Assembly (NCBI GenBank): GCA_947581645.1
Contig: CANPVF010000022.1
Span: 1-63,875 of the forward strand
Direction of reading: 5' to 3'
From: Candidatus Caribbeanibacter nitroreducens
GTDB taxonomy: Bacteria > Gemmatimonadota > Gemmatimonadetes > Palauibacterales > Palauibacteraceae
DNA: 63,875 bases
The notes below the pieces were generated by a model. The model saw nothing but the letters and a program-made list of their open reading frames with translations, ran no database searches and was not told where the DNA came from. Of this stretch, positions 36,713 to 47,391 are shown in pieces (position 1 is the stretch's first letter; each line of letters starts with the position of its first letter). The translations under genes and the position numbers were made by a program.

Positions 36713-36772
36713 AGCGCCCGGAGCGCCCCGCGTGAGGTCGGGGTGGGGACCTGGAAGACGGAGGGCAGCCAC

Positions 36773-37504
36773 ATGATTCAGCCGAACGTTCGTGCGTCCT
36801 TCGGGAGCGAGGAGGCCAGATGGCTGGTCCGGCTCCTCGCCGGTGAGGACGAGGAGCGCCGTGAGGAGTGGAGCGAGCGCCTCGAGGAGCGGGGCGTGGA
36901 CGCCCTCCTGGACGACGCCGAGACCCGGCGCCGGATCCTGAGCGCCGACGGCATCAGCCTGGCTCCGCCCGGCCTCGTCCTCTACGTCCTGGTCCGCCAG
37001 TCCCTGAAGGAAGTGGGCGTGGAGAGCCGGACCCTGGCCGACTACGTGACCGCCCTGGTCCTGGAGTTCGGCCGCGAGGACCGGGCGCGGCGCATCTCCG
37101 CCGTGGACGACCGGGAGTACGACTACCTCGTGGAGATCATGAACGACATGCTGGAGGCCGACGGGCGGCGGGCCTTCCTCCTCCGCAGCCACCTGGGGAA
37201 CTTCGCCCTGTGGCTCTCCGGTCTCTTCCCGGACCACATCACGTCCCGGGGACACCGCCGCGGCGGGCCCGGCATCGACTACTACGAGGAGCTGGGCGAG
37301 ACGGGATATCGGATGGCGGCCGAGGACCCTCACGCCCGGGAGAAGTCCCTGTCCCGGGTGTACCGCGAGGCCGCGGACCGCTTCCGGGACGTGCGCCGGG
37401 GCCTCAACCAGTTCTCCGACGAGCTCCTGTTTCCGAGCCCGTCGGCCCCCGTCGATCGGCTGCTCCGCCAGGCGCACACGGACTTCATGGACGGAGCCCA
37501 CTGA
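36773..37504 (+). CDS. Unknown soluble helical protein
   Basis: A 243-residue, mostly helical, acidic protein with no membrane segment or known motif. Distinct stretches are LVRLLAGEDEERREEWSERLEERGVDALLDD, YVTALVLEFGREDRARR, and LLRSHLGNFALWLSGLFPDHI in the centre, then a GPGIDYYEELGETGYRMAA segment. I recognise no family. The ATG at 36773 follows GGAGGGCAGCC. It lies 60 bp after the lipoprotein gene and 131 bp before fur, and its stop precedes the fur operator region. Confidence 0.7.
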   Translation: MIQPNVRASFGSEEARWLVRLLAGEDEERREEWSERLEERGVDALLDDAETRRRILSADGISLAPPGLVLYVLVRQSLKEVGVESRTLADYVTALVLEFGREDRARRISAVDDREYDYLVEIMNDMLEADGRRAFLLRSHLGNFALWLSGLFPDHITSRGHRRGGPGIDYYEELGETGYRMAAEDPHAREKSLSRVYREAADRFRDVRRGLNQFSDELLFPSPSAPVDRLLRQAHTDFMDGAH

Positions 37505-38866: not shown

Positions 38867-39778
38867 ATGCTGAGACGCCTTCTGCTCTACCTGAGCGAGC
38901 GCGAGGACCTCAAGGATCGGCTCCTGAAGGTCCCGGCCCTCCGGCGCGTGGCGGAGCGGTTCGTCGCCGGAGACGAGCTCCCGGACGCCCTGGACGCCGC
39001 CGGACGGCTCAACGACGACGGTCTCCGCGTCACCCTGGACCACCTGGGCGAGAGCGTCGAGAACCCGGAGCAGGCGCGCCGGGCCGGCGACGACTACGTC
39101 CGCAGCCTCGAGCGCATCGACGAGCGGCCGGTGGAGTCCACCATCTCGCTGAAGCTCACCCAGCTCGGTCTGGACATCGACCGGGAGCTGTGCCGCGAGA
39201 ACCTGCACCGCATCGTCCGCCGGGCGGCGGAGCTCGGCAACTTCGTCCGCGTGGACATGGAGAGCTCCGACTACGTCCAGGCCACGCTGGAGCTCTTCGC
39301 GGAGGTCTTCCGGGACCACCCGAACGTCGGCGCCGTCATCCAGTCCTACCTCCGGCGGAGCGAGCGGGACGTGGAGCGCCTGGTGGAGATGGGCGCCCCC
39401 GTGCGGATCGTGAAGGGGGCGTACGACGAGCCGCCGGAGGTGGCCTTCCAGGAGCGGGAGGAGGTGGACGGAAACTTCGTACGCCTCACGCGGCTCCTGC
39501 TGGAGGGAGGTGTCCCCACGGCGGTGGCCACCCACGACGAGCGGATGATCGACGCCACCCTCGACCACGCCCGGGAGCTGGACCTGTCGCCGGGCGACTT
39601 CGAATTCCAGATGCTGTACGGGGTGCGTCGTCCCTACCAGCGGGAGCTGGCTCGCGCGGGACACCCGGTCCGGATCTACCTGCCCTACGGCTCCGACTGG
39701 TATCCCTACCTGATGCGCCGGATGGCGGAGAAGCCCGCCAACCTCCGGCTGGTGCTCCGGGCGATGATCGGAGGCTGA
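38867..39778 (+). CDS. Proline dehydrogenase, monofunctional
   Basis: A 303-residue FAD-dependent proline dehydrogenase (PRODH barrel), oxidising proline to pyrroline-5-carboxylate. Motifs: SISLKLTQLGL-like TISLKLTQLGLDI, VRVDMESSDYVQATLELF, VRIVKGAYDEPPEVAF, VATHDERMID and the C-terminal YLPYGSDWYPYLMRRMAEKPAN, which holds the substrate Tyr and Arg-Arg. It lacks the P5C dehydrogenase domain of PutA. The ATG is at 38867. A 141-bp gap follows pyrE, where no clear terminator is seen. Confidence 0.92.
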   Translation: MLRRLLLYLSEREDLKDRLLKVPALRRVAERFVAGDELPDALDAAGRLNDDGLRVTLDHLGESVENPEQARRAGDDYVRSLERIDERPVESTISLKLTQLGLDIDRELCRENLHRIVRRAAELGNFVRVDMESSDYVQATLELFAEVFRDHPNVGAVIQSYLRRSERDVERLVEMGAPVRIVKGAYDEPPEVAFQEREEVDGNFVRLTRLLLEGGVPTAVATHDERMIDATLDHARELDLSPGDFEFQMLYGVRRPYQRELARAGHPVRIYLPYGSDWYPYLMRRMAEKPANLRLVLRAMIGG

Positions 39779-39829
39779 GGGGAGCGCCGGAGCCGCCGGC
39801 CGCCCTCCGGGGAGCGGCCGACCCGGGGA

Positions 39830-40990
39830 TCAGCGGAGGATCGCCGCCACCCCGGTCCCGGTGGGCATCCGCTCCTCGGACAGGATCAGCGACCGCCCCC
39901 CCTTCTCCATGACGACCTCGGCGACCTCGTCCAGCAGGTCGACGGCCTCCGGACCGGGATCCTCGCCGCCCTCGCGAATGTGCTCCATCTCTCCCGTGTG
40001 GCGGTCGAACCGCCCCCACACGTTGCGGCCGTGCTGCGTCAGGAGCAGGCGGATGCGTCCCGCCACGGCGAGCCGGGCGACGCTGGCCAGGTCCGCCTCG
40101 CCCTTGCCGTTGCTGTAGGCGTTCTCCCACAGCTGCAGGGCGCCGTCGATCTTCTCCAGGACCGTCTCGCGCACGACGGGCCACGCCGAGTCGTGGAGGC
40201 GGGAGGCGTCCCAGTTCGAGACGTTTCCGGTGACCCCCTCGTCGGTCAGGTTCTCGAGCCGGCTGACCTCGTGATAGAGGGGGTGGTAGTAGTCGACCGC
40301 GGCCAGGATGACCGGTCCGATCTCATCGGCCAGCAGCTCGCGGACGCCGTCGTCCACCTTCCGGAAGAACCGCTTGAGCTCCGGCTTGGCGTCGTCCTGT
40401 CCGACCCCGTGGCCGTGGAAGATGGCCCCGGTGCCGCCGGGCGTCCCGCCCTGCTTCGGGCTGTGGAACTGGAGCTCGTCCCGCTCGAACTCGTAGCCCA
40501 GCGCCTCCTGGAGGCTCCGCGGCACGCCGGCCAGGTCCACGGGGGTGAGCCCCGACCGGGTCCCCTGCCACAGCCGGACCTCCTTCTGGCTGATGGACAG
40601 GACCCAGTAGCGATCCGGCGCCTGCAGGTACTCCATCAGGGGCCGGGTGTGGAACGTGGGCGCCACGACGACCAGATCCTCGAAGGAGACCGGCAGACGG
40701 TACATCCGGTGCATCTCCGGGCTGGCGAAGGCCGCCAGGCCGTCGGCCTGGTACGTCCAGAAGTCCTGCTCCACGTTCAGGTAGGCGCGGAAGGGGTCCA
40801 GGACCTGATCCACCTGGTCCTGGCTCACGCTCGCGGACAGCTCCTCCTCCGCCTGCTCCAGAGCGGCGCGGAACCGGAGCCGGTTGGCCTCGGCGCCGGA
40901 GCTCCGCTCGGTCTCCAGGTAGATGGAGGCCGTCGGAACGTCCTGAACGGCGAGCAGCTCCTTCAGCTCGTCACGACCAAAGTAGTCCAC
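39830..40990 (-). CDS. Balon/baeRF-type ribosome hibernation factor (bacterial eRF1-like)
   Basis: A 386-residue protein of the bacterial archaeo-eukaryotic release-factor-like group (baeRF family 3 pattern): MDYFGRDELKELLAVQDVPTASIYLET at the N-terminus, a central domain with ILAAVDYYHPLYHEVSRL, and a C-terminal eRF1/pelota-like domain ending RSLILSEERMPTGTGVAAILR. Related proteins (Balon) were shown to sit in the ribosomal A site during cold and stationary stress. There is no catalytic GGQ motif that I can see. The GTG start has AAGAGGAG upstream. It stands alone between proline dehydrogenase (convergent) and the small membrane protein. Confidence 0.75.
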   Translation of the reverse strand: MDYFGRDELKELLAVQDVPTASIYLETERSSGAEANRLRFRAALEQAEEELSASVSQDQVDQVLDPFRAYLNVEQDFWTYQADGLAAFASPEMHRMYRLPVSFEDLVVVAPTFHTRPLMEYLQAPDRYWVLSISQKEVRLWQGTRSGLTPVDLAGVPRSLQEALGYEFERDELQFHSPKQGGTPGGTGAIFHGHGVGQDDAKPELKRFFRKVDDGVRELLADEIGPVILAAVDYYHPLYHEVSRLENLTDEGVTGNVSNWDASRLHDSAWPVVRETVLEKIDGALQLWENAYSNGKGEADLASVARLAVAGRIRLLLTQHGRNVWGRFDRHTGEMEHIREGGEDPGPEAVDLLDEVAEVVMEKGGRSLILSEERMPTGTGVAAILR

Positions 40991-41189
40991 CGATCGAACT
41001 CCTCTTTAGCTTGCTGATCTCTCGCACGGACGGCGTGCCTCCGAACGGCAGGTAGTCCGGACAGGATCGATCACCACGGGACACGGCCTTCCTCCGGCGC
41101 CGGTCGACGCCGGGCCGCTAAGTCGGAGCACGGACCGTACCGGAGAGACCGGATCGGCCGGGTCTCCCGCCCCCCGTCCACCCGACGGA

Positions 41190-41534
41190 TCACTCGACCC
41201 CGGGCAGGAGCGCGTGGAACAGGATGCCGAGCACCGACATGACCAGGGCGCCGAGGAAGGCGGCTCCGAAGCCCGCCACCGAGAACCCGGGGGTCAGCAC
41301 CGAGGCCAGGGCGAACAGGATCCCGTTCAGCACCAGGTAGAACAGCCCCAGGCTGAGGATCGTGATGGGCAGCGTCAGGACCACCAGGACCGGCTTCAGC
41401 ACGGCGTTCAGGAGACCGATGATCAGCGCCGCCAGCAGGAGCGCCCCCGTGCCCTCCACCACGATGCCCGACACGATCTTCGTCGTCAGGTAGAGGGCAC
41501 CGGCGTTGAGAAGCCATCGCACGACCAGAAGCAT
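41190..41534 (-). CDS. Four-helix small membrane protein (PF04020 'phage holin 4' family)
   Basis: A 114-residue protein with four hydrophobic segments and the typical pattern LLNAVLKPVLVVLTLPITILSLGLFYLVLNGILFALAS. This is the mycobacterial-type 4TM family often labelled phage holin but widespread in chromosomes without phage genes. No lysis genes are near. The ATG at 41534 has GGAGGTCAC directly upstream. A 199-bp region separates it from the hibernation-factor gene start; it contains no gene I can support. Confidence 0.82.
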   Translation of the reverse strand: MLLVVRWLLNAGALYLTTKIVSGIVVEGTGALLLAALIIGLLNAVLKPVLVVLTLPITILSLGLFYLVLNGILFALASVLTPGFSVAGFGAAFLGALVMSVLGILFHALLPGVE

Positions 41535-41761
41535 GTGACCTCCGGACAGGGATGGTGCGCGGCCGACCCCGGAATCCGTTCCGGGTCCGGCCGGGGGCTC
41601 GGGCGGCGCGGACGTCCGGTCGCCCACGGGGAACACAGATTGCGCTTCGGATTCGATGGCTCAAGCTGACGCGCGCGGACGAGGTCGACAAGTCTCATGA
41701 AGGCCAGCCAGCCTTCGACGCGCTGACCTCCGAGCGCGGACAACCGACACGGGAGGCGACG

Positions 41762-42295
41762 ATGGAGATTCAGGTCGACGACGTGCAGATCGAGGCCGTC
41801 CGGGGAGACATCACCAGCCAGCCCGACGTCGACGCCGTGGTCAACGCCGCCAACGCGGAGCTCCGCACCGGGGGCGGCGTGGCCGGGGCGATCCACCGGG
41901 CCGCGGGCCCCGGCCTCGAGGAGGAGTGCCGCCCGCTGGCGCCCATCGAGCCCGGCGAGGCCGTGATCACCGGCGGGCACGACCTGCCGAACCCGCACGT
42001 GATCCACGCCCTGGGCCCGGTCTACGGCCGGGACGAGCCCTCGGACGAGCTGCTGGCGGCCTGCTATCGCAACTCGCTGGCCCGGGCGGAGGAGAAGGAG
42101 CTCGGCTCCGTGGCCTTCCCGGCCATCTCCACCGGCGCCTTCGGCTACCCGATGCGGGAGGCGGCGGAGGTGGCGGTCTCCACGCTGGTGGAGGAGGCGC
42201 CCGGGCTGGAGCACGTGCGCCGGATCCGCTTCTGCCTCTTCGGCGAGGACGCCCTGGAGGCCCACGAGGAGGCGCTGGAGAAGCACGGGGGCTGA
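41762..42295 (+). CDS. Macro-domain (ADP-ribose-binding) protein
   Basis: A 177-residue stand-alone macro domain of the YmdB/MacroD type: RGDITSQPDVDAVVNAANAELRTGGGVAGAIHRAAG, then VIHALGPVYG and AFPAISTGAFGYPMREAAEVA. NAANxxLxxGGGVxGAIH binds ADP-ribose, and the second loop (STGAFGYP) holds the phosphates. Members hydrolyse O-acetyl-ADP-ribose or remove ADP-ribose from proteins. ATG 41762 follows GGGAGGCGACG. It is divergent from the small membrane protein and convergent with dnaE2, whose 3' side carries a dispersed repeat. Confidence 0.92.
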   Translation: MEIQVDDVQIEAVRGDITSQPDVDAVVNAANAELRTGGGVAGAIHRAAGPGLEEECRPLAPIEPGEAVITGGHDLPNPHVIHALGPVYGRDEPSDELLAACYRNSLARAEEKELGSVAFPAISTGAFGYPMREAAEVAVSTLVEEAPGLEHVRRIRFCLFGEDALEAHEEALEKHGG

Positions 42296-42475: not shown

Positions 42476-45400
42476 TCACCGGAAGTCGCGGCTGGTGACC
42501 TCCCCGGCGCCCGCCCGGGGGTCCACCGCGAAGACCCGCTCCGTCTGCACGTTCACCACCTCCCCCTCCCGCTCCACGATCCCCTCCATGCGGAGCACGG
42601 GGCTGCGGACCAGCACGGAGCGGCGCTCCTCCAGCAGGTCCGGGGTGACCACGAAGTTGGCGAAGCCGGTCTCGTCCTCCAGGGTGACGAACATCACGCC
42701 CCGGGCCGTCTTCGGCCGCTGGCGGACGATGGCGATCCCGGCCACCGCCACCTCGGCCCCGGCGGGCTGACGGGCCAGCTCCTCCGCCGACAGCACCCCC
42801 TTCCGCCGCAGCCGCTCCCGCAGGAACTCCATGGGATGCCCCTCCGTGGAGAGGCCCACCGTGCGGTAGTCCGCCCGCACCCGCTCCGCCCGGGAGAGGG
42901 GCGGGAGGCCGGCGCGGCGCGGAGGCTCATCGTCCGCCGCTGCGCCCCCGCCCGTCTCCGCGGAGACGTCTCCGGCCGAGCTCCCGCTCCCCTCCCCACT
43001 CCCGTCGCCGGCCCGGGGGCGGGGCGCCAGGGGCCCGGCGTCGCCCCGGAGCTCCCTGAGCAGCTCCCACAGCGCCTCCCGGCGGCCGGGCCACAGGGAG
43101 TCGAAGGCGCCGGCCTCGGCCAGGGTCCTCAGCTCCGGCTCGCCCAGGCCGCTCCGCTCCACCACGTCCTCCACGGAGGTGAAGGGGCCCTCCTCGCGGG
43201 CCCGCCTCAGCTCCTCCTCGGCGCGGCTGCCCAGCCCCCGCACCAGGCGGAGCCCCATCCGCAGGGCGGGGGCGTCGCCGCCCTCCCGCGGCTCCAGGGT
43301 GCAGTCCCACGCCGAGCGGGCCAGGTCCACGGGCCGCACCTCCACGCCGTGCCGCTTCGCGTCCTCCACCAGCGTGGAGGGGGCGTAGAAGCCCATGGGC
43401 TGGGCGTTCAGCGTGGCGCAGAAGAACTCCGGCGCGAAGTGCCGCTTCAGGTACGAGGACGCGTAGACCAGCAGCGCGAAGCTCAGGGCGTGGCTCTCCG
43501 GGAAGCCGTAGTTGGAGAAGGCGGTGAGCTGCCGGAACACCTTCTCCCGGGCCTCCGGCGGCACGTCGTTCTCCTCCAAACCCTCGGCCAGCTCCCGCCC
43601 CACGCGGCTCATCTCCCGCTCCGAGCGCTTGAAGCCCATGGCCCGCCGCAGCCGGTCGGCCTGGGCCGGGGTGAAGCCCGCCAGCTCGATGGCCACCCGC
43701 ATCCCCTGCTCCTGGAAGAGCGGCACGCCCAGGGTCCGCTCCAGCACCGGCTTCAGCCGTTCGTCCAGGTAGGTCACCTCCTCCTCGCCCCGCCGGCGCC
43801 GCAGGTAGGGGTGGACCATCTCCCCCTGGATGGGACCGGGCCGGATCAGCGCCACCTCGATGGCCAGGTCGTAGAAGGAGCGCGGCTCCACCCGGGGGAG
43901 GGTGTTCATCTGCGCCCGGGACTCGATCTGGAACACCCCCACCGTGTCCGCCTCGCAGATCATGTCGTAGGTGGCCCCGTCCCCCTGCGGGATCTCCGCC
44001 AGGTCCAGGGACACGCCCCGGGTCCGGCGCAGGTGGGCCAGCGTCTCGCCCAGCACCGTGAGCATGCCGAGGCCCAGCAGGTCGATCTTGATCATCCCCA
44101 CCAGGGCCAGGTCGTCCTTGTCCCACTGGATGATGGTCCGCCCCTCCATGGAGGCCTCCTCCACGGGCACCGTCTCCCCCACCGGCCGTTTCCCGATCAC
44201 GAAGCCGCCCACGTGGATCGACCGGTGCCGGGGCAGGCGGTCCAGGCCGCGGACCACGTGGATCAGGGCCCGGGTCCGCGCCGCTCCCGGGTCCAGCCCC
44301 GCCCGGGCGGCGCCCCCCTCCTCCAGCCGCCCGGCGGCGTCCTCCGCCTCCCCGCGGTCCACCTCCGCCGCCAGCTCGTCGGCGGTCTCCTGCCCGAAGC
44401 CCAGCACCCGGGCCGCGTCGCGGACCGCCATCCGCCCCCGGTAGGTGATGCTCTCGCACACCATGGCCGCGTGGTCCCGCCCGTAGCGCCGGTAGACGTA
44501 CTGCAGCACCTCCTCCCGGTCGTCGTGGGCGATGTCCAGGTCGATGTCCGGCGCCTCGCCCCGCTCCTCCGACAGGAAGCGCTCGAAGAGCAGGTCCATG
44601 CCCACCGGGTCCACGGCCGTGATCCCCAGGCAGTAGCAGACCGCCGAGTTCGCCGCCGACCCCCGCCCCTGCACCAGGATCCCCCGCCGATTCGCGAATC
44701 GCACGATGTCCCAGACGATGAGGAAGTAGTCCGCCAGCTCCAGTCGCTGGACGACGTCCAGCTCGTGCTCGATCTGCTCGCGGTGCTCCGGGCCGAAGTC
44801 CTCTCCGTACCGCTCGCGGGCCCCCTGCCCCACCAGGGCCCGGAGGAACTCCCCCGAGGAGCGGCCGCCCGGGACGTCGAAGGAGGGGAGGCGGGGCTCC
44901 AGGTCCGAGATCCGAAAGGAGCAGCTCTCCGCGACCCGGGCGGTGCGGCGGAGGGCGCGGCAGCCCCTGCAAGTGCACGGGGAGGCCCCGGGACGGCTCG
45001 ATCGCTCGGAGGGAGTCGCTCCCTCGCCGTCCCGGGCGCCTCCCCTCGCGCGGTGGGTGGAGTCGTCCCGCCCGGTGCCCGGTGCTCCCGGTGGCGACGC
45101 GGGGGAGTCCGGGGCCCCGGACGAGCGACTCTGTCGCAGCGAAGGAGATCCGGGAGGACGCGAAGCGTCCGAGCTAGCTCCGGAGCGATCGCGACAGCCC
45201 GAGCGAGACCGGGGCCCCGGATCCCCCCGCTCGCACCACCGCACCCGCATCTGGCGGGCCGACTTCAGATACCACTCGCCGTTGGGGCGCAGGCGGTCGC
45301 CGGCCCCGTCCAGGGTGACGTCGTGGCGGAGGCAGGTGAGCACGTCCTGGACGATCCGGTCCCGGGGGCGGGCGTAGAGGGGCGCGTTCACCGGGAGCCA

Positions 45401-45979
45401 GGGGATCCCGGCCTCCTCCGCCCGCTCGACCCACGCCGCGCACGCCCGGGCCTCCTCCGGCAGGCCGTGGTGCTCCAGGGCCAGGTACAGACGGTCGCCG
45501 AAGAGACGATCGAGCTGCTCCAGGACGGGCGGCGTCTCCGCGGAGACGTCTCCGCCCCCGGCGACGACCCGGGCCAGGGCCACGACCCCCTGCGTGCGTC
45601 CCTTCAGGACGCCCCGCGGGAGCGAGGGCTCGCCCCGGGGGTTGGAGCGGCGGGCCCGGGTGATCAGCGACGAGAGGTTCGCGTACCCCTCCCGGTTCCG
45701 ACACAGGAGCACGACCGGCGGCCACCCCTCCCGCCTCACCTCGCCCCCCACCAGCGGCTCCACGCCCTCCGCCCGGCAGGCCCGGGCGAAGCGGACCGCC
45801 CCGCCCAGGTCGAAGCGGTCCGTCAGGGCCAGGGCCGGGGCGCCGATCTCGCCGGCCCGCTCGGCCAGGGCCTCCGGCGTGGAGGCCCCCTCCAGGAGGG
45901 TGAAGGCGGAGCGGGCGGCCAGCTCCACGTAGGGGGGCGAGTCGCCGTCCGGGGACGGCCCGCCGCTCAGTCCCACCAT
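42476..45979 (-). CDS. dnaE2: Error-prone DNA polymerase DnaE2 (ImuC) with in-frame repeat insertion
   Basis: A 1167-residue C-family polymerase for mutagenic translesion synthesis, the catalytic part of the ImuA-ImuB-DnaE2 mutasome. Catalytic Asp residues are in APDIDLDIAHDDREE, and the palm motif GRGSAANSAVCY is present. A helix-hairpin-helix and an OB fold occupy the C-terminal third. The N-terminal PHP domain is degenerate: the usual HxH and downstream His are replaced (ELAARSAF, LTDRFDL). Residues about 249-343 are an Arg/Ser/Pro/Gly-rich segment absent from the family, placed just before RTARVAESCSF. The ATG at 45979 overlaps imuB by 13 nt. Confidence 0.92.
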   Translation of the reverse strand: MVGLSGGPSPDGDSPPYVELAARSAFTLLEGASTPEALAERAGEIGAPALALTDRFDLGGAVRFARACRAEGVEPLVGGEVRREGWPPVVLLCRNREGYANLSSLITRARRSNPRGEPSLPRGVLKGRTQGVVALARVVAGGGDVSAETPPVLEQLDRLFGDRLYLALEHHGLPEEARACAAWVERAEEAGIPWLPVNAPLYARPRDRIVQDVLTCLRHDVTLDGAGDRLRPNGEWYLKSARQMRVRWCERGDPGPRSRSGCRDRSGASSDASRPPGSPSLRQSRSSGAPDSPASPPGAPGTGRDDSTHRARGGARDGEGATPSERSSRPGASPCTCRGCRALRRTARVAESCSFRISDLEPRLPSFDVPGGRSSGEFLRALVGQGARERYGEDFGPEHREQIEHELDVVQRLELADYFLIVWDIVRFANRRGILVQGRGSAANSAVCYCLGITAVDPVGMDLLFERFLSEERGEAPDIDLDIAHDDREEVLQYVYRRYGRDHAAMVCESITYRGRMAVRDAARVLGFGQETADELAAEVDRGEAEDAAGRLEEGGAARAGLDPGAARTRALIHVVRGLDRLPRHRSIHVGGFVIGKRPVGETVPVEEASMEGRTIIQWDKDDLALVGMIKIDLLGLGMLTVLGETLAHLRRTRGVSLDLAEIPQGDGATYDMICEADTVGVFQIESRAQMNTLPRVEPRSFYDLAIEVALIRPGPIQGEMVHPYLRRRRGEEEVTYLDERLKPVLERTLGVPLFQEQGMRVAIELAGFTPAQADRLRRAMGFKRSEREMSRVGRELAEGLEENDVPPEAREKVFRQLTAFSNYGFPESHALSFALLVYASSYLKRHFAPEFFCATLNAQPMGFYAPSTLVEDAKRHGVEVRPVDLARSAWDCTLEPREGGDAPALRMGLRLVRGLGSRAEEELRRAREEGPFTSVEDVVERSGLGEPELRTLAEAGAFDSLWPGRREALWELLRELRGDAGPLAPRPRAGDGSGEGSGSSAGDVSAETGGGAAADDEPPRRAGLPPLSRAERVRADYRTVGLSTEGHPMEFLRERLRRKGVLSAEELARQPAGAEVAVAGIAIVRQRPKTARGVMFVTLEDETGFANFVVTPDLLEERRSVLVRSPVLRMEGIVEREGEVVNVQTERVFAVDPRAGAGEVTSRDFR
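42953..42974. repeat. 22-bp palindrome-based repeat, copy 1 (in dnaE2)
   Basis: Contains the perfect 16-bp palindrome CGTCTCCGCGGAGACG followed by TCTCCG. The full 22 bp are identical to 45533-45554. In the dnaE2 frame it encodes GDVSAET between two low-complexity stretches near the C-terminus. Confidence 0.7.
44987..45036. repeat. Nested hairpin inside the dnaE2 insertion
   Basis: An outer 11-bp perfect stem CCCGGGACGGC/GCCGTCCCGGG encloses an inner 7-bp stem GAGGGAG/CTCCCTC with loop TCG at 45009-45025. The 50-bp unit looks like a palindromic repeat element rather than protein-driven sequence. Confidence 0.7.
45115..45207 (-). repeat. 93-bp structured repeat, copy inside dnaE2
   Basis: On the minus strand this copy begins TCGCTCGGGCTGTCGC and ends GAGTCGCTCGTCCGGGGC. 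It matches the intergenic copy at 42335-42427 at 86 of 93 bases. Here two further perfect palindromes (GCTCCGGAGC and GAGCTAGCTC) are intact that are broken by single changes in the other copy. It is read through as coding sequence. Confidence 0.85.
45533..45554. repeat. 22-bp palindrome-based repeat, copy 2 (in dnaE2)
   Basis: Identical over 22 bp to 42953-42974 and again encodes GDVSAET in the dnaE2 frame, at about residues 143-149 in a linker of the N-terminal domain. Confidence 0.7.
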
Positions 45980-47391
45980 CCGTGCAGCCACCAGCGGGGC
46001 TCCCCGTCCTCCGCCGCCTCCCGGTACAGCCACAGCAGCTCGCCGGCCTCCGTGCACACCCGGTAGTACTCGCGCCGGTACGGGTCCCGCCACCAGTCGC
46101 CGGACAGCCGCTCCGGCCCCTCGGCGGCGGCCAGCTCGTGGACGCCCCCGTCGTCCCGGAGGGCCGCCGGGCGGTCGCCGTCGGCCCGCACGCCGACCCG
46201 ACGCGGCTCCGGCAGGAGGCGGAGGACGCCGGGGACCCCGCCGTCCTCCGCGGAGAGACGATCGTCCCTCTCGCCGGCACTCCCGCCGGACTCCCCGCCG
46301 GGCGCGGGCCGGTCGCCGGCCTCCACGGGCCGCCACCGGCTCCGCCTCTCCGGCCGGTGGTCCGGGAGCGGGTCCGGGCGCACGACCCACTCCTCGTCCG
46401 GGGCCCGGGCCCGGAGCCGGGCCAGCGTGGCGGCCACGGCGGCGGGGTCCCGCCTCCCGGATGCGAAGAGGTCCCCCTGGCGCACTTCCGCCGGCGCCCG
46501 CTCCGGGACTTCGACAGCCACGGCGGCCACCGGCGCCGGGAGGCCCGTTCCGTCCGGCGCTCCCTCGGCCCGCTCCAGGGCCGCCCGGCACAGGTCCAGG
46601 AGCAGGTCCTCCCGCCGGGTGGGACGGGCCGGCGCGATCTCCGCCTCCTTCGTCTCCCCGCCGTCGGTCTCGAGCCGCAGGAGGACCCGCTCCGCGCACC
46701 GCCCCTCCTCCTCCAGGTCGCCGCACAGGCGGGCCAGGAGCCTCCGCAGCACGAAGAGGAGGGGCTCGGTCTCCCGCACCGCGCCGTCGAGCTCCATGGA
46801 CGCCGACGGCACGGGCTCCGGCGAGAGGGCCGGGAAGACCCGATCGTCCTCCCCCCGGGCCCAGCGGTGCAGGCGGATCCCCTCCGGCCCGAACCGGGCC
46901 TCCAGCTCCTCCCGGTCCCGGGCGGCCACCTTGCCCACCCGGCCGAGCCCCAGGGTGCGGAGCGTCTCCTTCGTCTCCTCGGAGACGGGCAGCAGGCCCA
47001 CCGGGAGGGAGGCCAGGAAGGCCGCCTCCTCTCCGGCCGGGACGATCACCGTCGGCTCGTCCCCGCCGCTCCCCTCCCCGCCCCATTCCTCACGGAGGAT
47101 CGCCAGGCGGGAAGCGGCGTCCGCCGCCACGCCGGACCCCGCGATCCCCACGCCGGCCGGATCCGCCTCCCGGCGCCGGACTGCCCGGTGGAGGCGACGG
47201 GCCAGCGCCTCCCCGCCGCCCCGCCGCTCCCAGCCGCGGGCGTCGGCCCGGCACAGGCCGGGGCCGGCCACCGCCACCCGGGGCGTGGCCTCGAAGAGGG
47301 CGGTGGCCAGCTCCCGGGTCCGGGTCAGGTCCCCGTCCTCCCCGAGCGCCGGGAGGCAGACCGAGGCGACGCGCTCCCTCCCGCCGGTCAT
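45967..47391 (-). CDS. imuB: ImuB-like catalytically inactive Y-family polymerase homologue
   Basis: A 474-residue ImuB, the adaptor that links DnaE2 to the beta clamp and ImuA. Recognisable parts are the ATPRVAVAGPGLCRADARGWERRGGGEALARRLHRAV stretch, corresponding to the palm region with the GGE motif, a VGLLPVSEETKETLRTLGLGRVGKVAA helix-hairpin-helix, and the C-terminal DWWRDPYRREYYRVCTEAGELLWLYREAAEDG region typical of ImuB tails. About 60-70 residues normally present between the N-terminal strand and the palm core appear to be missing, and no catalytic Asp/Glu triad is present. ATG 47391 overlaps the imuA stop by 4 nt. Confidence 0.85.
   Translation of the reverse strand: MTGGRERVASVCLPALGEDGDLTRTRELATALFEATPRVAVAGPGLCRADARGWERRGGGEALARRLHRAVRRREADPAGVGIAGSGVAADAASRLAILREEWGGEGSGGDEPTVIVPAGEEAAFLASLPVGLLPVSEETKETLRTLGLGRVGKVAARDREELEARFGPEGIRLHRWARGEDDRVFPALSPEPVPSASMELDGAVRETEPLLFVLRRLLARLCGDLEEEGRCAERVLLRLETDGGETKEAEIAPARPTRREDLLLDLCRAALERAEGAPDGTGLPAPVAAVAVEVPERAPAEVRQGDLFASGRRDPAAVAATLARLRARAPDEEWVVRPDPLPDHRPERRSRWRPVEAGDRPAPGGESGGSAGERDDRLSAEDGGVPGVLRLLPEPRRVGVRADGDRPAALRDDGGVHELAAAEGPERLSGDWWRDPYRREYYRVCTEAGELLWLYREAAEDGEPRWWLHGWWD

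Follow-up and report, generated by a model that had tools for sequence, protein, structure and literature searches.

Balon (AOC03_06830) of Psychrobacter urativorans and its mycobacterial homologues Msmeg1130 and Rv2629 are the closest described relatives of the protein analyzed here. Msmeg1130 and Rv2629 were both reported to be bound in the ribosomal A site, and the same study describes an HP motif of Balon located at the decoding center and states that Balon and RaiA, a factor of the HPF type, are able to occupy one ribosome together (PMC10901736). For the broader assemblage of baeRF proteins, Burroughs et al. 2019 proposed roles in rescue or release and judged most of the families catalytically inactive (PMC6514570). 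On the function of family-3 baeRF proteins, our literature search found nothing beyond these two papers and no experiment on a family-3 member.

Here, we report a computational analysis of a gene from Candidatus Caribbeanibacter nitroreducens that had been predicted to encode a Balon-type ribosome hibernation factor. The window, that is, the whole stretch of 63,875 nucleotides that was analyzed, is contig C22 of a 2.96-Mb genome assembly with a completeness of 95.93. The encoded protein truly belongs to the baeRF/Balon superfamily and is best described as a family-3 baeRF. With a probability of about 0.7, we consider it a distant relative of Balon that enters the empty A site under stress and silences the ribosome without releasing the peptide. 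The gene itself is an ordinary member, recognized by current models, of a family that is already known and widespread; mildly new are a middle-domain HGxG loop without a counterpart in Balon and a recurring neighbor of the PF04020 family.

Gene, sequence family and fold

The gene is an intact open reading frame (ORF) of 386 amino acids that starts with GTG (Table 1). Full-length homologues are 55-61% identical in genomes of the same family and 34-45% identical in others, so the frame is not a product of chance. The ribosome-binding site that had been noted corresponds to a Shine-Dalgarno-like GAGGAG (Table 1), whereas the description of the upstream region as devoid of genes was wrong, because a gap of 199 nt separates the start from a PF04020 gene on the same strand. 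The suggestion of growth-phase control is likewise unsupported: no sigma-70-like site was found within 39700-41900, a span that may hold a promoter of another type.

Table 1. Features of the baeRF locus (window coordinates)
Feature	Position	Strand	Evidence
baeRF_family3 protein, three-domain aeRF1/Balon-type	39830..40990	-	ORF, PF18845, NF052287, 8rd8_B profile match, models, fold matches
Shine-Dalgarno-like GAGGAG, 8 nt 5' of GTG	40999..41004	-	sequence
N-terminal domain (~residues 1-123), equivalent of the decoding-center domain	40622..40990	-	model; eRF1 N-domain 2llx matched at 1-124; alignment
Middle domain (~residues 124-276), Pfam baeRF core	40163..40621	-	Pfam 127-312 (family 3), 128-274 (family 7); eRF1 middle domain 2hst matched at 123-273
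HGHG loop motif (residues 192-195), shortly before helix at GGQ-loop position	40406..40417	-	84-protein alignment; model
C-terminal Pelota-like domain (~residues 277-386)	39833..40162	-	model; Pelota and eRF1 C-domains matched; ungapped Balon alignment
PF04020 (Phage_holin_4_2) small membrane protein, likely start 41534	41190..41636	-	Pfam E 5.7e-30; 199 nt upstream of baeRF
Proline dehydrogenase, convergent neighbor	38867..39778	+	Pfam

The Pfam model PF18845 (baeRF_family3) matches residues 127-312 at E 5.4e-44, and the score of the whole protein, 150.9 bits, lies above the gathering cut-off of 31.5. Because the models of families 7, 6, 8 and 11 also pass their Pfam cut-offs, the number 3 denotes the best score and is not an exclusive label. 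The NCBIfam model of the Balon (AOC03_06830) family, NF052287, aligns to residues 9-386 across profile positions 1-360 of 361 (E 5.3e-46). With 157.7 bits, the protein attains under half of the equivalog cut-off of 330 bits for this model and, on profile scores, is classified as a Balon relative, not as a Balon equivalog. Both PF18845 and NF052287 match all 24 members of the alignment designated A1 at E <= 0.01; the NCBIfam models of Msmeg1130 and Rv2629 are reached at E 0.01 by 7 and 1 of the 24, respectively. When sequences in the Protein Data Bank (PDB) were searched with the single protein, Balon (8rd8_B) was matched at E 2.9e-12, and the A1 profile placed Balon first (E 4.9e-41), followed by Msmeg1130 (E 1.1e-4). 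The significant matches in the HMM search, by which the original prediction was to be checked, were thus Pfam baeRF families 3, 7, 6, 8 and 11 and NF052287, rather than an unrelated family.

Two AlphaFold2 models, built from 24 sequences (mean pLDDT 85.2, pTM 0.76) and from 53 sequences (the better one; mean pLDDT 91.2, pTM 0.85), together with fold matches over residues 8-386, display the three-domain aeRF1 architecture. The domain layout anticipated for a baeRF/aeRF1 protein is therefore borne out by Pfam, by the models and by the fold searches. In Foldseek searches, Balon was the best PDB match for both models (E 2.9e-23 and 3.1e-23), with query-normalized TM-scores of just 0.52-0.54; sixth by E-value, ahead of Rv2629, came the aRF1 structure 4af1. 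VIA-align yielded Z scores of ~23 for Balon (8rd8, 8rdv and 8rdw, over 336-346 residues), 20.6-20.9 for Msmeg1130, 15.5-15.6 for Rv2629 and 13.6-14.1 for the best aRF1/eRF1 chains, such that all Balon, Msmeg1130 and Rv2629 chains rank above eRF1/aRF1 by this measure. Against the Balon-type chains, the rmsd amounts to ~6-9 Å, probably because the free model positions its domains differently. Balon is the best solved structure both by sequence and by fold. In the C-terminal domain, the model contains a strand pair (residues 324-328 and 335-340) that aligns without gaps to the strand region of the Balon C-domain. We tentatively take the aligned stretch of Balon to be its EF-Tu hairpin.

Sequence motifs and the HGxG loop

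The peptide-release motif of aeRF1, GGQ, is absent from the window protein, and NIKS was found in none of 84 proteins, namely, the window protein and 83 relatives. This set is weighted to the nearest relatives, those from the best 80 of 435 genomic stretches (see below), and three loci with readings shorter than 340 aa (L019, L059 and L086) were left out of the counts and the tree.

We tentatively take the HP motif of Balon to be the His-Pro of THREHP. At this position, the window protein has TERSSG; its N-domain loop (residues 27-36) is without the HP of Balon, and HP occurs in register in 1 of the 84 proteins. By eye, HP is present in four and FP in three of seven proteins that come from a different family within the class; FP is also found in the plasmid-borne Moraxella homologue of Balon, which is 52% identical to it. 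HP therefore marks the family poorly. No HP in register is seen in the printed letters of the Msmeg1130 N-domain. We considered and rejected the possibility that loss of HP excludes ribosome binding, given that Msmeg1130 has no HP in register and yet is reported to be ribosome-bound, and that the Moraxella homologue has FP.

The HGxG motif of the middle domain is strongly conserved: H192 is found in 80, G193 in 84 and G195 in 80 of the 84 proteins. The variable position x is occupied by H in 58 and by Q in 16, with Y, F and A also occurring. Balon aligns with GSD at this place and thus lacks the motif; the retention of HGxG in the present set and its absence from Balon imply that contact with the peptidyl-transferase center may differ. 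In the better model, HGHG is the only segment of at least three residues under pLDDT 50, which fits a loop that would be ordered by its target but could instead reflect a gappy alignment. Compared with the lasso loop around A2602 and the bL27 trap of Balon, it is a low-confidence loop at an apparently comparable place with a different sequence. A GGQ-like catalytic glutamine within HGxG was also considered and, with Q at x in just 16 of the 84 proteins, was demoted to one of the rival explanations discussed below. By eye, two baeRF relatives from the same class (L133 and L134) have no middle-domain loop and do have the N-terminal HP.

Phyletic distribution and gene neighborhood

An alignment-based genome scan detected 435 stretches encoding a relative, across phyla, the best 80 of which were kept; a scan of the same genome contigs with the single protein found no relatives. 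Among these best 80, the closest named relatives are mostly metagenome-assembled genomes of Gemmatimonadota/Gemmatimonadetes. The factor is encoded in 26 of 60 genomes (own included), comprising 19 of the 35 same-family genomes, in some of which the match is partial, and 7 of 8 in the sister family, and in none of 17 from the rest of the class. Across a phylum sample, 18 of 249 genomes, own included, carry it at E <= 1e-30, which makes the distribution patchy. The genome under study has one match to the factor. Searches of plasmids returned 18 and 12 records with relatives, and in the four records examined, for which the gene table is incomplete, no holin is seen beside the factor. The Moraxella homologue of Balon mentioned above (L138) is encoded by the Moraxella osloensis plasmid pNP7-2, which is classed as mobilizable; toxin-antitoxin and recombinase genes lie nearby.

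A maximum-likelihood tree with Balon as the root was quickly estimated for 95 proteins; the search was brief and bootstrap-free, and several branches are long. A branch of 2.47 changes per column (SH-aLRT 100) sets Balon and its Moraxella homologue apart from the remaining 93 proteins. In this tree, the window protein groups with 14 proteins from the same family (support 100), and two others from that family (L020 and L022) fall elsewhere.

The neighbor upstream of the baeRF gene is the sole PF04020 match in the genome. Judged by coordinates, 13 of the 19 factor-bearing genomes of the same family have PF04020 as the immediately upstream gene, in the orientation of the factor. Among the exceptions, G002, G008, G012, G015 and G016 have no PF04020 match (the matches of G015 and G016 to the factor being only partial), and in G031 PF04020 lies on another contig. 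None of the seven factor-bearing genomes of the sister family has PF04020, and it is present in 14 of 16 genomes of genus g6 that lack the factor. We also surveyed 86 loci, of which L024 and L087 represent one place twice and several include little DNA upstream. A PF04020 ORF was found at 17 of them (the window, 12 loci from its family and 4 from cyanobacteria), in each case no more than 342 bp upstream and in the orientation of the factor; as the search profile was built from these same 17 positives, the result shows position, not sensitivity. The remaining 69 loci, some with little upstream DNA, have no PF04020 ORF. The tree includes three of the four cyanobacterial proteins paired with PF04020, which branch far from the group of the window protein; the fourth (L086) was left out because of its short reading. 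Neighboring ORFs were called mechanically, so that several clusters consist of antisense frames, which were not counted as genes; four of these frames (L043_5, L049_4, L050_3 and window_33) had been joined to the PF04020 cluster and were excluded.

We take YvlD to be a PF04020 protein. It belongs to the sigma-W regulon of Bacillus subtilis (PMC3498285) and is named among three LiaR-linked genes of Enterococcus (PMC7033496). The pairing with baeRF thus hints at envelope stress and does not fix the function.

On the side of proline dehydrogenase, 12-13 of the 86 loci share ORFs that, by eye, resemble orotate phosphoribosyltransferase, a Fur-like regulator and fumarate hydratase. Some relatives adjoin genes for HPF (L104 and L079), a universal stress protein (L055) or a CBS-domain protein (L053), examples drawn without a systematic count; a stress-gene context of this kind is described for baeRF/Balon genes in both earlier studies (PMC6514570, PMC10901736). 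In the window, the PF04020 gene is the only close neighbor on the same strand, and no HPF gene is adjacent. Elsewhere in the window, we observed a DnaE2-like ORF, identified by eye (42476-47086, minus strand), with a stretch of ~90 residues rich in Ser, Arg, Gly and Pro that resembles an in-frame insertion, and an ORF of 253 aa (36743-37504, plus strand) that has no Pfam match at E 0.01 and similar ORFs at 6 of the 86 loci, window included.

Two ORFs of the genome, of 111 and 186 aa on contigs C111 and C123, score above the cut-off of the S30AE (HPF-type) family. The 186-aa protein (L003:1261-1821, minus strand, contig C123) has a C-terminal part that, by eye, is cold-shock-domain-like. RMF was not found in the genome; among 14 control genomes, E. 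coli alone has it. The presence of two S30AE proteins, the reported compatibility of Balon with RaiA and the failure to detect RMF leave the idea of a dormancy route independent of HPF/RMF without support.

Proposed role and comparison with known systems

By analogy with Balon-type factors, which are characterized by mRNA-independent binding to the A site together with EF-Tu(GDP) under stress, ribosome binding, contact with EF-Tu, silencing of translation and timing under stress are the likeliest properties of the window protein. In starved or stressed cells, the factor would enter the vacant ribosomal A site, with its N-domain at the decoding center and the mRNA unread. The HGxG loop of the middle domain would reach towards the peptidyl-transferase center, and the strand pair of the C-domain would touch EF-Tu or the stalk. 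The ribosome would then be held idle, its peptide unreleased, alongside the HPF proteins of the cell. This reading is favored by the family and structure matches, by the lack of GGQ and NIKS and by the stress-gene neighbors of some relatives; weighing against it are the low NF052287 score, the missing HP motif, the HGxG loop without a Balon counterpart, the modest TM-scores, the rank of 4af1 ahead of Rv2629 and the distance of the window gene from both HPF genes.

Several other interpretations merit consideration. The protein might be an active or rescue-type relative of aeRF1, in which FHG[H/Q]G replaces GGQ for release or which disassembles stalled ribosomes as Dom34/Pelota does. We regard this as rather unlikely, although HGxG is nearly invariant, closely precedes the helix found at the position of the GGQ loop, shows less order than any other segment in the better model and mostly has H or Q at x, and although rescue or release roles have been proposed for baeRF proteins: GGQ is missing, x can also be Y, F or A, two relatives from the same class do without the loop, its low pLDDT may simply mirror a gappy alignment, and the study that proposed these roles considers most baeRF families catalytically inactive (PMC6514570). 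A more far-reaching proposal, which strikes us as unlikely, is that family-3 baeRFs form a functional class apart from Balon, such that FHG[H/Q]G would act at the peptidyl-transferase center, either as another lock or as a peptide-releasing substitute for GGQ, and the factor would be hard-wired to the PF04020 protein in two or more distant lineages, thereby coupling envelope stress to the silencing of ribosomes.

The PF04020 neighbor can also be read on its own terms, with the factor and the adjacent membrane protein taking part in an envelope-stress response and the target being membrane-associated ribosomes or something besides the A site. The uniqueness of the PF04020 match in the genome, its closeness on the same strand, the retention of the pair in the same family and at four cyanobacterial loci, and the sigma-W control of YvlD would suit such a role; we nevertheless deem it quite improbable, given that most surveyed loci have no PF04020 ORF (some having little upstream DNA), that PF04020 occurs without the factor in genus g6 and the factor without PF04020 in the sister family, and that the link may be plain co-regulation. 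Finally, the patchy spread in the phylum sample would be compatible with a spurious ORF or with an aeRF1 relative that has decayed or lost its function, an explanation rendered barely credible by the intact, full-length frame kept in same-family genomes and by residues that are invariant across phyla.

The window protein and Balon (8rd8, 8rdv and 8rdw) share the full-length, three-domain aeRF1 fold, the lack of GGQ and NIKS and, as far as the model and alignment suggest, a strand pair in the C-domain; they differ in that the HP motif is found in Balon and the HGxG loop in the window protein. The Balon-type identity originally proposed holds at the level of the baeRF/Balon family and not for Balon proper, considering the identity of ~21%, the score below the NF052287 cut-off, the missing HP motif and the branch of 2.47. 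Msmeg1130 and Rv2629 (8v9j, 8v9l and 8v9k) have the same fold (Z ~20.9 and 15.6) at 13-15% identity. With aeRF1/eRF1 and Pelota/Dom34, the protein shares domain order and fold (Z ~14 and ~10) with ~7-18% identity among the listed multi-domain structural alignments, but it has neither the GGQ of eRF1 nor NIKS. Within the classification of Burroughs et al. 2019, in which families 3, 7 and 6 are the nearest, it belongs to family 3 by best score. The solved Balon-type structures that we found are those of the Psychrobacter and mycobacterial proteins, and the window protein represents a large, cross-phylum branch with a loop motif of its own, which makes it a reasonable target for asking whether all baeRFs silence ribosomes alike.
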